A DNA stretch of 12,746 nucleotides from a bacterium (lineage in GTDB: Bacteria; UBP6; JAFGXH01), in assembly GCA_027064085.1 (NCBI GenBank), contig JAMOQH010000076.1, positions 1 through 12,746 of the forward strand, written 5' to 3'. How positions within the stretch are numbered: the stretch's first letter is position 1; each line of letters starts with the position of its first letter. The translations under genes and the position numbers were made by a program. A model generated the notes under the pieces. The model did no database searches and had not been told where the DNA came from. It worked only from the letters and a program-made list of their open reading frames with translations. Below, piece by piece: positions 6,300-10,695 of the stretch.

Positions 6300-7574
6300 A
6301 TGAGTCAAAATTATCAAGATATTTTTAATATATTAAAATTTTATTATCAGGAAAAGTCTTTTTTAAAGAATATATTGGATATCTATATAAAAAAAAATAG
6401 TATTGAAGATACTAAAACAACAACCGATTACATTTATGGTATTGTTAGAAATGATATTTATCTTACGCATTTGATTAACCATTTTGTTAAAAAATTAAAG
6501 AATAAAGATCTAATATACATGAAAATCCTATTTTATGGCATTTTGTTTAGAACAAATACTCAAAATGAAATATTTATCAATGATTTCATAAGATTTATAA
6601 AAAAGAAATTTGGAATTAAAAAATCAGGATTTTTTAATGGAGTTGCTAGAAATTTATTAAGAAATCAAAATTTTATTGATTCCTTAAAAGAAAATAAACA
6701 AATTTATTATTCTATTCCTAAAGAGTTATATCAATATGTCGAAAACAATATAGATAATAAAAAACTAAAACAGAAAATTTATGATAAAATGATAGAAGTT
6801 CCACATTTTTATTTTAGAGTAAATAAACTATCAAATGGAGATAATTTACTAAAAAAAATAGAAAAAGCTCATATTTGGGGCAATATTTATAGATTTAATG
6901 ATGAGTTAAAACTATCTTCATTAGAAAAAGAACTAAAAAATAATAAAATTATAATACAAGACATTTCATCTCAAATGATTGCTCATATATTAGCCCCTAA
7001 AGAAAATGAAAAAATTGCTGACTTTTGCTCTGCTCCAGGAGGAAAATCAATTTTACTATCAGAATTAAGCAATAATAAATCTGAAATTTTATCTATAGAA
7101 TTAGAAAAAAATAGATTTACTAAATTGAAAGAAAATGTCAAAAACTATAAAAATATCACTCCATTATTATCCGATGCAACAAAGCCTATTCTTGTAAATC
7201 AAAAACAAGCTATTTTTGATAAAATTTTAGTTGATGCTCCTTGCTCTGCTTTAGGAACCATATCCAAATCTCCTGATAAAAAATATAGATTTTCTAAAAT
7301 TGACTTATCTGAGTATACAAAAATACAAGTTAATATATTAAACAATGCCCTAAATCATTTAAAGCCCTATGGAATACTTCTCTATTCTCTCTGTACATTT
7401 ACAAAAGAAGAATGTGTTGATAGTGTTGAAATATTTTTAAAGCAAAATAAAAACAGAGTTAAATTAGTTGATTTTGAAACCCCAGATAGTAAGTTTAAGG
7501 GAAATAAATTATATACAGCAACTTATTATAATGGTGATTTATTTTTTATAACTAAATTTCAACGAATTAATTAG
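6300..7574 (+). CDS. rsmB: 16S rRNA (cytosine-C5) methyltransferase RsmB (NusB domain + SAM methyltransferase)
   Basis: 424 residues, the usual size for RsmB (Sun/Fmu). Residues 1-125 form a NusB-like helical RNA-binding domain. The catalytic part begins around 165 with VPHFYFRVNKL. SAM-binding motif I is DFCSAPGGKS (241-250). Motif IV is VDAPCSALG, with C315 as the PC cysteine. Motif VI is LLYSLCTF, with C365 as the presumed nucleophile. RsmB methylates C5 of a cytosine in 16S rRNA (C967 in E. coli numbering). The residue before the nucleophile is Leu rather than the common Thr, but both cysteines are intact. The gene starts 6 bases after the kinase stop and closes the tightly packed run. 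A run of nine A (6389-6397) lies early in the gene. Another RNA m5C methyltransferase of the same superfamily is possible, but the NusB domain favours RsmB. Confidence 0.93.
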   Translation: MSQNYQDIFNILKFYYQEKSFLKNILDIYIKKNSIEDTKTTTDYIYGIVRNDIYLTHLINHFVKKLKNKDLIYMKILFYGILFRTNTQNEIFINDFIRFIKKKFGIKKSGFFNGVARNLLRNQNFIDSLKENKQIYYSIPKELYQYVENNIDNKKLKQKIYDKMIEVPHFYFRVNKLSNGDNLLKKIEKAHIWGNIYRFNDELKLSSLEKELKNNKIIIQDISSQMIAHILAPKENEKIADFCSAPGGKSILLSELSNNKSEILSIELEKNRFTKLKENVKNYKNITPLLSDATKPILVNQKQAIFDKILVDAPCSALGTISKSPDKKYRFSKIDLSEYTKIQVNILNNALNHLKPYGILLYSLCTFTKEECVDSVEIFLKQNKNRVKLVDFETPDSKFKGNKLYTATYYNGDLFFITKFQRIN

Positions 7575-7599: not shown

Positions 7600-7628
7600 T
7601 TGACATTCTAGCTTTGATTTGGTAGATT
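7600..7628 (+). promoter_or_regulatory. Probable sigma70-type promoter of the tandem membrane-protein genes
   Basis: A perfect TTGACA (7600-7605) is followed by a 17-base spacer and TAGATT (7623-7628, 4 of 6 matches to the -10 consensus). A TG at 7620-7621 forms an extended -10. Transcription would start near 7635, about 23 bases before the ATG at 7658. No equivalent lies before the second paralogue, so both genes are probably transcribed from here, besides any read-through from rsmB. Confidence 0.6.
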
Positions 7629-7638
7629 TCTTAGTTGA

Positions 7639-7671
7639 TTTTTAAGGAGTTTTGTTTATGAGTGATGAAAA
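7639..7671 (+). repeat. Copy 1 of an identical 33-base translation-initiation block
   Basis: This block is identical in all 33 bases to 8324-8356. It contains a Shine-Dalgarno AAGGAG (7644-7649), an 8-base spacer and the start ATGAGTGATGAAAA. The spacing selects the ATG at 7658 over the in-frame TTG at 7652, which is only 2 bases from the binding site. Confidence 0.9.
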
Positions 7672-8308
7672 CAAAAAGAATAGGGTAGATTTAGGTGGTT
7701 CAGGCAGTAACAGTTTTGAAGAACCTATTATCAATGATGATTATGAATTAACCAATTCATCATCATCTGGTGGAATTATGGGTTATGTATTTATGGGATT
7801 AATAATAGTTGCTTTAGTTATATCATACTACATGATTAATAAAGGAAAAGAAAAACTAGAAAAAAATCTTTCTGTTGTTAAAGCCAAATTAGCTAAAATA
7901 GAAAAAGAAAAAACTCAAGAACGAATAGGAAATTTACACATAAAAATAGAGGACCCGGAAAAGGATTTACCTGAAGAAGAAAAAACAAGTGCTCCCGGAG
8001 TTGAAATCTATATTAATGGAGAACAACAAACCGGTGGTAATGGTAGTGTTGACATGCTAAAACAGAACATTAGCCATGATTTGGTTTTTGAATTTAAAAA
8101 ACCTGGATACTATCCATTAAAACTTGAAGTAAAGTCTTGCAACTGGAAAAAACAGGCAGATGGAACATATCTTTATGAAAACAAAAACCTGCATCTAGTT
8201 ATAGATGAAAATGGAATGATGGCAATTGAAGCAGCTAAAAAAGAAAAGGATAAAGAAGCAAAAAATAGAAGTGGAAAAAAGAAGAAAAGAAGAAGAAGAA
8301 GAAGATAA
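7658..8308 (+). CDS. Single-pass membrane protein with PEGA-like domain and poly-Arg tail (paralogue 1)
   Basis: 216 residues from the ATG at 7658. Layout: a polar N-terminal segment (1-39) with conserved PIINDDYE; one transmembrane helix (about 40-60); a short Lys/Glu coiled coil (63-88); a beta-rich domain (about 91-182) with VEIYINGEQ, FEFKKPGYYPLKLEVKSCNWKK and a single Cys (C161); then an extremely basic tail ending in KKKK plus six Arg. The 'V-x-NG ... KPGYY' pattern resembles a PEGA domain, a small beta fold usually found in surface or extracytoplasmic proteins; this is a judgement by eye. Charges around the helix (acidic before, basic after) favour a cytoplasmic C-terminus, in tension with the usual PEGA location. 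I do not recognise the family. It has its own likely promoter and a close paralogue directly downstream. Confidence 0.88.
   Translation: MSDENKKNRVDLGGSGSNSFEEPIINDDYELTNSSSSGGIMGYVFMGLIIVALVISYYMINKGKEKLEKNLSVVKAKLAKIEKEKTQERIGNLHIKIEDPEKDLPEEEKTSAPGVEIYINGEQQTGGNGSVDMLKQNISHDLVFEFKKPGYYPLKLEVKSCNWKKQADGTYLYENKNLHLVIDENGMMAIEAAKKEKDKEAKNRSGKKKKRRRRRR
8288..8305 (+). repeat. (AGA)6 trinucleotide repeat encoding the terminal Arg tract
   Basis: Six consecutive AGA codons lie immediately before the TAA at 8306-8308 and encode the last six residues of paralogue 1. Slippage here would change the number of Arg residues without shifting the frame. Confidence 0.9.
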
Positions 8309-8323
8309 TTATTTCTTTATTGG

Positions 8324-8356
8324 TTTTTAAGGAGTTTTGTTTATGAGTGATGAAAA
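8324..8356 (+). repeat. Copy 2 of the identical 33-base translation-initiation block
   Basis: Identical to 7639-7671. It contains AAGGAG (8329-8334), 8 bases before the ATG at 8343. The in-frame TTG at 8337 is too close to the binding site to be the start. The bases just upstream differ between copies (no promoter is duplicated), so identity is confined to the ribosome-binding region and first codons. Confidence 0.9.
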
Positions 8357-8984
8357 TAAAAAAAATAGAGTAAACTTAGGTGGTTCTGGAGACAATTTAT
8401 TTGAACAACCTATTATTAATGATGATTATGAATTTAATGGACCACAAAGGTCTGCGGGTGGAAAATTTATTTTTACAACTATGTTTTTAGCAATTATAGG
8501 ATTATTAATCGCATCTTACTTTGTTTATAAAGACAAAGAAACATTAAAAAAAGATATTGTTATTGAAAAAAATAAGTTAGCCAAAATTGAACATGAAAAA
8601 AATAAAAAATTATATGGTAATCTGCACTTAGAGGTTGAGGACCCAGAAAAGGGTATGCTTCAAGAGAAAAAAACTGGTCCTGCAGGTGTTGAAGTTTATG
8701 TAAATGGTCAGTTAAAACCTAAAGCAAGTGGTGTTACAATTACCAATCAGGACATTAGTCAGGATTTGGTTTTTGAATTTAAAAAACCTGGTTATTATCC
8801 TGTAAAATTAGAATTAAAATCTTGTAATTGGAAGAAACAGGGTAAGGATAAGTATTTCTATGAAAATCGTGATATTCGCTTAGCAAGAGATGAAGAAGCC
8901 ATGAAAAAACTTGAAGAAGAAAAAAGGGCAAAAGAACAAGCTGAAAAAAACAGAAAAACTAACAAGAAGAAAAGAAAAAGATAG
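8343..8984 (+). CDS. Single-pass membrane protein with PEGA-like domain and basic tail (paralogue 2)
   Basis: 213 residues from the ATG at 8343, a tandem paralogue of the gene ending at 8308. It has the same layout: N-terminal segment with PIINDDYE, transmembrane helix (about 42-62), charged coiled coil (63-90), PEGA-like domain (about 92-181) with VEVYVNGQ and C161, and a long basic helix and tail (about 183-213) ending KKKRKR. By hand alignment 26 of the first 31 residues and 24 of 26 at residues 141-166 match paralogue 1. The membrane helix, coiled coil and tail have diverged much more. This pattern suggests duplication followed by selection on the N-terminus and the beta domain. It lacks the pure Arg tract. 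It is probably co-transcribed with paralogue 1 and ends 7 bases from the convergent ankyrin gene. Function unknown. Confidence 0.88.
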   Translation: MSDENKKNRVNLGGSGDNLFEQPIINDDYEFNGPQRSAGGKFIFTTMFLAIIGLLIASYFVYKDKETLKKDIVIEKNKLAKIEHEKNKKLYGNLHLEVEDPEKGMLQEKKTGPAGVEVYVNGQLKPKASGVTITNQDISQDLVFEFKKPGYYPVKLELKSCNWKKQGKDKYFYENRDIRLARDEEAMKKLEEEKRAKEQAEKNRKTNKKKRKR

Positions 8985-8991
8985 ATTTTGC

Positions 8992-10695
8992 TCAATCAAT
9001 CAAAAAATTTTTATATTTTTTAAAAAATGAAATTACTCTACTAGTTTTACTGTGATTATCTTTCTTAGATGCTTTTGGTAAACTTTTGTATTCTATTCCA
9101 TTATTGTCAATAAAAATGAAATTATTTATTTCCCTATTATAGTATACCTTAAATAGACGATTTCCATAATCTAGTATAAAACTATTCTTTATCTTTTTGA
9201 GAGGACTTTCTGTAGGTATTAGTAGTTTATTTTTTATCTTAAATTTAGGAATAATATCCTTGGATTTTAAATTTAATTTTTTAAAAACATCCCTATACTC
9301 AAATTTTAGTACATAATATATTAAATAATTATTTTTAATTGCAATTTCTAAAACTTCAAGTAAAGCTTTAACATCTATCTTTTTTATCATAAAACTTAAT
9401 ATCGTTTCTGTTTTTATTTCATTTTCATATAATAAGTCTAGCTCCCTACCCTCTTTTAACAAGAATTTTAAAAGAATTACTTGTTTTCTATATACGGCTT
9501 GTAATATATGAACACTATGAATTTTGACACCTAGTTTTACAATTCTTTTTATATAGGAAATAGTAAAATCATTGGCAATTAATCCACTTAATAAGTTCTT
9601 AATATCAGAAACCAAAGTTATTTGCTCACCAAAATCTAAAATTACATCATAATTAAATTCAAAATCAAAATTTACATCATTATTATATAGTAAATATTTT
9701 ATCATTTCTTTATCTTTATTTTCAGCTGCAATTTCAAATAATGTTTCCGAAGGATAAATAATATAATTTAAATCAGTATTTTCTAATAACTTTAATATTT
9801 CTAAACTCTGATATTTAGCAGAATAAGAAATTGGCTTATAGTAATACTCATCTATTTCGTCTGTTTCAAAACCATAATCTATTAAAAGTTTTACCATTTT
9901 ATAATTTTGATATTTTATAGCATAAGTTAAAGCATTATATCGATTATCCTTTCCAAATTTTAAACCTTTTATATCATATTTCAAATCATCTATTATAAAT
10001 TTCAACAGTATATAATTCTGTTCTTTAATATATTTACCAACTAATATTTTTATATCTAATTTACTTAATTTTGTATTTATATTTGCTTCAATAAAAAGCT
10101 TTATGATTTTTAAGTTTCCATAATGAAGTATATAAAAAAACATTTTTTTCTTACTGTTATCATATTGCTCAAAAAGAGATGTTGAAAAGTTAACTTTTTT
10201 AGATATTAAAAATTCTATAAGTTTTAGATTTTGTGATTTTATTGCATAAAAAAGTAAATTTCTTTCTTTAAAATATTTTTTCTTATTAAGACGATTAACA
10301 ATTTTATATTTTGTATTTATTTTCAAACCCTTTTTTATTAAATATTCTACTATTTCAGGCTTAGTATCTTTATCTATATAACAAACAGCAGATGCTCCCA
10401 TTTTATTTAATTGGTTTATATTTATATTTTTTTCTAAAATTAGTTTTATTATCTCTAAATCATTTCCTTTTATTGCATAGAAAAGTATAGTATTTTTATT
10501 ATTATCACTCCCTTTAGTAGGCACATTTTGTGATAAAAGATACTTAAATATCTCTAATTTACCTCTAAAAGCAGCATAAAAAGATAAATATGCCCCATTT
10601 TCATCTTTTAGTTTTCTTTTTTTGGCATCAAAAGACTTACTAATTTTCATTAAAGAAGCATTTCTAACTAGTTCGAATATATTAATTTCCATCAT
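8992..10695 (-). CDS. Ankyrin-repeat protein
   Basis: 567 residues from the ATG at 10695; a second ATG follows at once (10692), and either could be used. Only a weak GGGG lies just upstream. About eight to ten ankyrin-type units run from residue 33 to about 460. They are clearest as FYAAFRGKLEIFKYLLSQNV, LFYAIKGNDLEIIKLILEKN, LFYAIKSQNLKLIEFLISKK, LTYAIKYQNYKMVKLLIDYG and FEIAAENKDKEMIKYLLYNN; others are degenerate. Ankyrin repeats bind proteins. Residues about 480-567 are not ankyrin: a beta-rich stretch (FILDYGNRLFKVYYN, FIFIDNNGIEYKSL) and a basic C-terminus. No signal peptide or membrane segment is visible, so the protein is probably cytoplasmic unless exported by another route. The gene is convergent with the tandem paralogues and downstream of the acyl-CoA dehydrogenase by 154 bases. 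The partner is unknown. Confidence 0.92.
   Translation of the reverse strand: MMEINIFELVRNASLMKISKSFDAKKRKLKDENGAYLSFYAAFRGKLEIFKYLLSQNVPTKGSDNNKNTILFYAIKGNDLEIIKLILEKNININQLNKMGASAVCYIDKDTKPEIVEYLIKKGLKINTKYKIVNRLNKKKYFKERNLLFYAIKSQNLKLIEFLISKKVNFSTSLFEQYDNSKKKMFFYILHYGNLKIIKLFIEANINTKLSKLDIKILVGKYIKEQNYILLKFIIDDLKYDIKGLKFGKDNRYNALTYAIKYQNYKMVKLLIDYGFETDEIDEYYYKPISYSAKYQSLEILKLLENTDLNYIIYPSETLFEIAAENKDKEMIKYLLYNNDVNFDFEFNYDVILDFGEQITLVSDIKNLLSGLIANDFTISYIKRIVKLGVKIHSVHILQAVYRKQVILLKFLLKEGRELDLLYENEIKTETILSFMIKKIDVKALLEVLEIAIKNNYLIYYVLKFEYRDVFKKLNLKSKDIIPKFKIKNKLLIPTESPLKKIKNSFILDYGNRLFKVYYNREINNFIFIDNNGIEYKSLPKASKKDNHSKTSRVISFFKKYKNFLID

Follow-up and report, generated by a model that had tools for sequence, protein, structure and literature searches.

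A tandem pair of single-pass membrane proteins with a PEGA-like domain and a Lys/Arg-rich tail in a lineage-restricted family

PEGA domains are common in exported bacterial proteins. In the genome studied here many exceed the Pfam cut-off, spread over about 10 contigs, and among them are Ser/Thr-kinase-like proteins that combine a membrane helix with several PEGA domains at the C-terminus (L012, L011/L020 and L019/L026). The domain is named in PMC2447325. A search of the literature returned nothing on the layout of the gene pair described in this work.

Three known systems come close to the pair. The PEGA kinase receptors of the same genome (L011, L012, L019) resemble it in having a cytoplasmic-type N-terminal part, one helix and PEGA sequence beyond, whereas the pair carries no kinase but a conserved peptide of about 40 residues, a heptad helix after the membrane and a basic tail. 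With the Pfam PEGA family (PF08308) the pair shares a PxG[AV]xx[IV]YxNG core and a KxxPGYxP-like motif. However, the GxTP motif is missing, an insert of about 13 residues separates the first two strands, and past the PGY motif the chain continues with additional sequence that includes Cys161-Asn-Trp-Lys and more strands. The predicted fold is also akin to transthyretin-like sandwiches such as teneurin, the C-terminal domain of carboxypeptidase D, EMC7 and CnaB, although sequence searches detected no relation to these.

The tandem gene pair and its surroundings

The window, i.e. the whole stretch of DNA that was analysed (12,746 nucleotides), is one entire contig of a 3.65 Mb genome assembled in 195 contigs (94.7% complete). 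Its G+C content is 25%. The features of the pair are as follows.

7600..7628, forward strand: candidate promoter of sigma-70 type, TTGACA-17-TAGATT, its second hexamer preceded by TG; a candidate only
7638..7670, forward strand: 33 nt spanning the leader and start of paralogue 1, TTTTTAAGGAGTTTTGTTTATGAGTGATGAAAA, identical to those of paralogue 2
7658..8308, forward strand: paralogue 1, 216 aa, ATG start at 7658
8323..8355, forward strand: the corresponding leader and start of paralogue 2, identical to the 33 nt of paralogue 1
8343..8984, forward strand: paralogue 2, 213 aa, ATG start at 8343, architecture as in paralogue 1

The two proteins are 54% identical over their full length, and NG86 estimates for the pair are dN 0.32 and dS 1.13 (dN/dS about 0.28). 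Because of this full-length identity and these values we regard both genes as real and as old duplicates; judged by its divergence, the tandem duplication is old, and the pair evolves under purifying selection. The paralogous tandem pair proposed in an earlier, sequence-only reading of the window is thus borne out. An identical AAGGAG leader precedes the ATG of each gene.

An RsmB-like rRNA methyltransferase gene (6300-7574, assigned with Pfam) ends 83 bases upstream of the pair, and an ankyrin-repeat gene (8992-10695, reverse strand, 567 aa) is convergent with it. The ankyrin-repeat protein weakly matches NCBIfam models of Dot/Icm ankyrin effectors (about 40 bits, against cut-offs of 600), a match that arises through the repeats. 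The earlier reading had also credited the pair with a promoter of its own and, from this, with substantial expression. This claim is not supported: the region contains 7 promoter-like sites against a mean of 9.0 in shuffled sequence, which is no excess, and expression cannot be read from a promoter site.

Protein layout and the beta domain

A third member of the family was found as a single-copy gene on contig DYRY01000003.1 of a cave MAG (G002) from the same bacterial family. This cave relative (206 aa) is 39% identical to paralogue 1 and keeps all features of the layout, namely the near-invariant N-terminus (MS[DE]EN..KKNRV[ND]L), the helix, the heptads, the PEGA-like core and a Lys tail. 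It has an extra Cys two residues before Cys161 and is without the insert of about 13 residues present in the window pair. The layout of paralogue 1 and the position of the beta domain in both genes are given here.

Paralogue 1, from N- to C-terminus: polar segment; membrane helix, about residues 40-60; heptad helix, as far as 86; PEGA-like domain, 90-180; C-terminal helix; Lys/Arg tail
7916..8200, forward strand: PEGA-like domain of paralogue 1, with Cys161 (profile-profile comparison, model and fold search)
8601..8890, forward strand: PEGA-like domain of paralogue 2, with Cys161 (profile-profile comparison)

Both paralogues show the elements recognised in the bare sequence (a PIINDDYE motif, one membrane helix, Cys161 and the Lys/Arg tail), and Cys161 recurs in the cave relative as Cys161-Asn-Trp-Lys. 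Each paralogue has a single hydrophobic segment (Kyte-Doolittle means of 2.26 and 2.29), and hydropathy indicates one helix in all three members. The short coiled coil held in part: heptad a/d positions exceeded shuffled sequences with p 0.015 for paralogue 1 and p 0.003 for the cave relative, whereas those of paralogue 2 did not reach significance (p 0.22).

The order of parts raises the question of whether the pair could be stubs of PEGA-bearing Ser/Thr kinase receptors, minus the kinase and now acting as co-receptors or decoys. The kinase, membrane helix and PEGA proteins of the same genome (L011/L020, L012/L021, L019/L026) do follow the same order, and the N-terminus of the paralogues, about 40 residues long, contains no Ser/Thr kinase domain according to Pfam. 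However, this short N-terminus is itself conserved, its first 12 residues being nearly invariant in the three members, which does not fit a decaying kinase remnant. We consider a receptor origin very unlikely.

For the region following the heptads a PEGA-like beta domain had been proposed, together with a profile search and a structure prediction by which it could be checked. The Pfam PEGA model (PF08308, curated cut-off 20.8 bits) matched neither the full-length proteins nor the isolated domains. Profile-profile comparison succeeded. When the family core was aligned by hhalign to a reference alignment of 14 PEGA domains from the same genome, a probability of 89% and a score of 33.6 over 47 columns were obtained; the best of 300 column-shuffled controls scored 17.0 and the reversed alignment 10.1. 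The PEGA relation, missed by the Pfam model, was hence recovered with the genome's own PEGA domains.

An AlphaFold2 model built from the three-sequence alignment contains a helix at 39-86, seven strands between 90 and 179 and a second helix at 184-215. Its confidence is medium, with a mean pLDDT of 62 and about 70 in the beta domain; a single-sequence model of the isolated domain was worse. Foldseek and VIA-align matched the model mostly to transthyretin-like sandwiches (Z 5.4-6.9 over about 64-86 residues), values below 8 that may reflect merely a common arrangement of strands. The matches of this transthyretin-like group are teneurin, carboxypeptidase D, intradiol dioxygenases, EMC7, CnaB and HIU hydrolase. 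These fold matches are consistent with PEGA and are not proof of it. Taken with the profile comparison, the model supports a PEGA-like core domain. The pair adds a compact single-pass layout to those known for PEGA-like domains. The earlier reading had recognised no family with this combination, and the searches agree: no family in Pfam, NCBIfam or PHROGs covers the full-length proteins, and sequence searches of the PDB gave no match.

The basic tail, orientation and a possible role

Lys and Arg account for 10, 9 and 7 of the last 12 residues in paralogue 1, paralogue 2 and the cave relative, respectively. The commonest count was 2 at 61 ORF ends of the window genome, these being loci fetched from the genome, some of them chosen for their tails. 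Conservation of tail charge is therefore seen in kind (all three members are Lys/Arg-rich) and not in strength. Within the genome the tail is unusual, not unique. Two other tailed genes were noticed: L055:967-1521, with a Lys/Arg-rich C-terminal extension (KKKLEDKKKKKNVKKKKRR), reads as a peptide deformylase, and L052:1-1521, whose C-terminal extension is long and rich in lysine, reads as an enzyme resembling the small subunit of glutamate synthase.

In the DNA that encodes the tail of paralogue 1, AGA and AAG triplets form a nearly perfect run. The tail could accordingly be a by-product, a purine-rich AAG/AGA tract that slippage lengthened at the 3' end of the gene, the genome being AT-rich, and that has no specific ligand, the beta domain being the part that matters. 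The differences in tail strength among the members agree with this, as does the finding that poly-purine runs before a TAR stop are no commoner than a control pattern: six Lys/Arg codons (ARR) followed by TAR occurred 11 times genome-wide, against 9+9 for the backwards control. Four of the 11 matches are in-frame ends of real genes, and two of these four are the window pair. Yet Lys/Arg runs end all three members despite overall identities of 39-54%, and comparable gene ends are rare in the genome. We regard a by-product without ligand as improbable.

On which side of the membrane the tail lies was approached from the charges flanking the helix. Within 15 residues before and after it, Lys/Arg numbers are 0 and 4 in paralogue 1, 2 and 5 in paralogue 2, and 3 and 3 in the cave relative, a pattern that is ambiguous for orientation. 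Paralogue 1 has an acidic N-terminus with no Lys/Arg near the helix and a lysine-rich stretch directly after it, and for this protein the positive-inside rule alone favours an inward domain. The anchor would then be inverted, with the N-terminus outside and the PEGA-like domain and tail in the cytoplasm, where the tail would bind rRNA, DNA or the inner membrane face. The best argument for such an arrangement is that the two other tailed genes of the genome read as cytoplasmic enzymes; a single conserved Cys would also be nothing unusual in a reducing compartment. Paralogue 2 and the cave relative, however, carry Lys/Arg before the helix as well. Furthermore, the charge pattern of paralogue 1 recurs in the kinase-PEGA protein L012, where the 15 residues ahead of the helix contain 1 Lys/Arg and those following it 6, though the kinase end of L012 should be inside. 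Hence, in this case lysines past the helix are no argument that the domain faces inwards.

Those PEGA domains of the genome whose upstream region could be read as well sit beyond a signal-peptide-like N-terminus (L009, L010, L016, L017, L024) or beyond a membrane helix with a kinase or zinc-ribbon region upstream (L011/L020, L012/L021, L015, L019/L026). In the PEGA frame L014, which looks truncated, neither signal peptide nor helix was seen. Because of this placement and of the charge pattern in L012, an outward-facing beta domain and tail is the likeliest orientation by analogy, and the inverted anchor appears unlikely.

With the domain facing outwards, the proteins may be signal-anchored envelope proteins, each acting as a tether that uses its tail and beta domain to hold on to an anionic component of the envelope; we put this forward tentatively, at a little less than an even chance. 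About 40 N-terminal residues would remain cytoplasmic, where the conserved peptide may contact a partner. The one membrane helix would run into the short heptad helix, which may pair two subunits as a homo- or heterodimer. The PEGA-like (transthyretin-type) domain would then lie outside the inner membrane with the Lys/Arg-rich tail at the end, and tail and domain together could grip polysaccharide, lipid head groups or acidic protein. Orientation, dimerisation, ligand and partner are what we infer here. All three members keep every element under purifying selection, the heptads being significant in two of the three, which supports a tether. More doubtful is the wider proposal of an undescribed tether family, limited to a handful of genomes within one bacterial family. 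In its members a conserved cytoplasmic peptide, a coiled-coil stalk, a PEGA-like domain and a polycationic tail would connect a partner in the cytoplasm with an anionic polymer of the envelope. If the tether reading is true, the ligands of PEGA domains could be studied with the pair as a small system of two genes.

Distribution of the family

The expectation of a taxon-restricted distribution agreed with the searches, in which the cave relative was the one further member. The three-sequence profile detected no member in G001, a congener of the cave MAG (93% complete), or in the remaining 25 genomes of the phylum. From outside the phylum about 360 genomes were sampled, and these gave no member and one spurious match at E below 1e-3. 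Viral contigs and plasmids (the latter by tblastn) contained no member. A scan of contig collections returned nothing with one sequence as query and the cave relative alone with the alignment, and the N-terminal 35 residues as query revealed no other gene convincingly carrying the motif. Since the wide search scored few candidates per genome and the contig scan required exact short peptide patterns, absence outside the known genomes is indicated, not proven.

Gene neighbours differ between the window genome and the cave MAG, and no family member lies beside the RsmB-like neighbour gene in G001 or G002. As neighbours are not conserved across the two genomes, no pathway is indicated. The narrow distribution and the non-conserved neighbours limit the reach of the findings. 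On these sequence comparisons the family is very rare and uncharacterised and seems to be a lineage-specific variant of a familiar pattern; the description that fits it best is a family of PEGA-like, single-pass proteins that is restricted to one lineage and carries a basic tail.

Several weaker matches were set aside. They lay at E 0.002-0.07 in G001, G024, G022 and G002, with one at 7e-4 in G130. The ones read (L030, L031, L034, L035 and L038; not L032 and L036) belong to other proteins, which align at the helix or by composition and comprise a zinc-ribbon membrane protein, TPR-like proteins, Hsp90 and a large secreted-type protein. A third match in the window genome (E 0.06) falls inside an Hsp90 gene. 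A PHROGs 'spanin' match of the cave relative (E 9e-4) spans the helix and coil alone, and the gene convergent with that of the cave relative (L007:6181-7689), considered as encoding an ankyrin protein like the one in the window, lacked Pfam support for this. The record of the cave MAG is titled 'Anaeromyxobacter dehalogenans isolate SulCav_PC08...', yet the genome groups with the family of the window in a small phylum represented here by 28 genomes; the Anaeromyxobacter dehalogenans label may be a misassignment.
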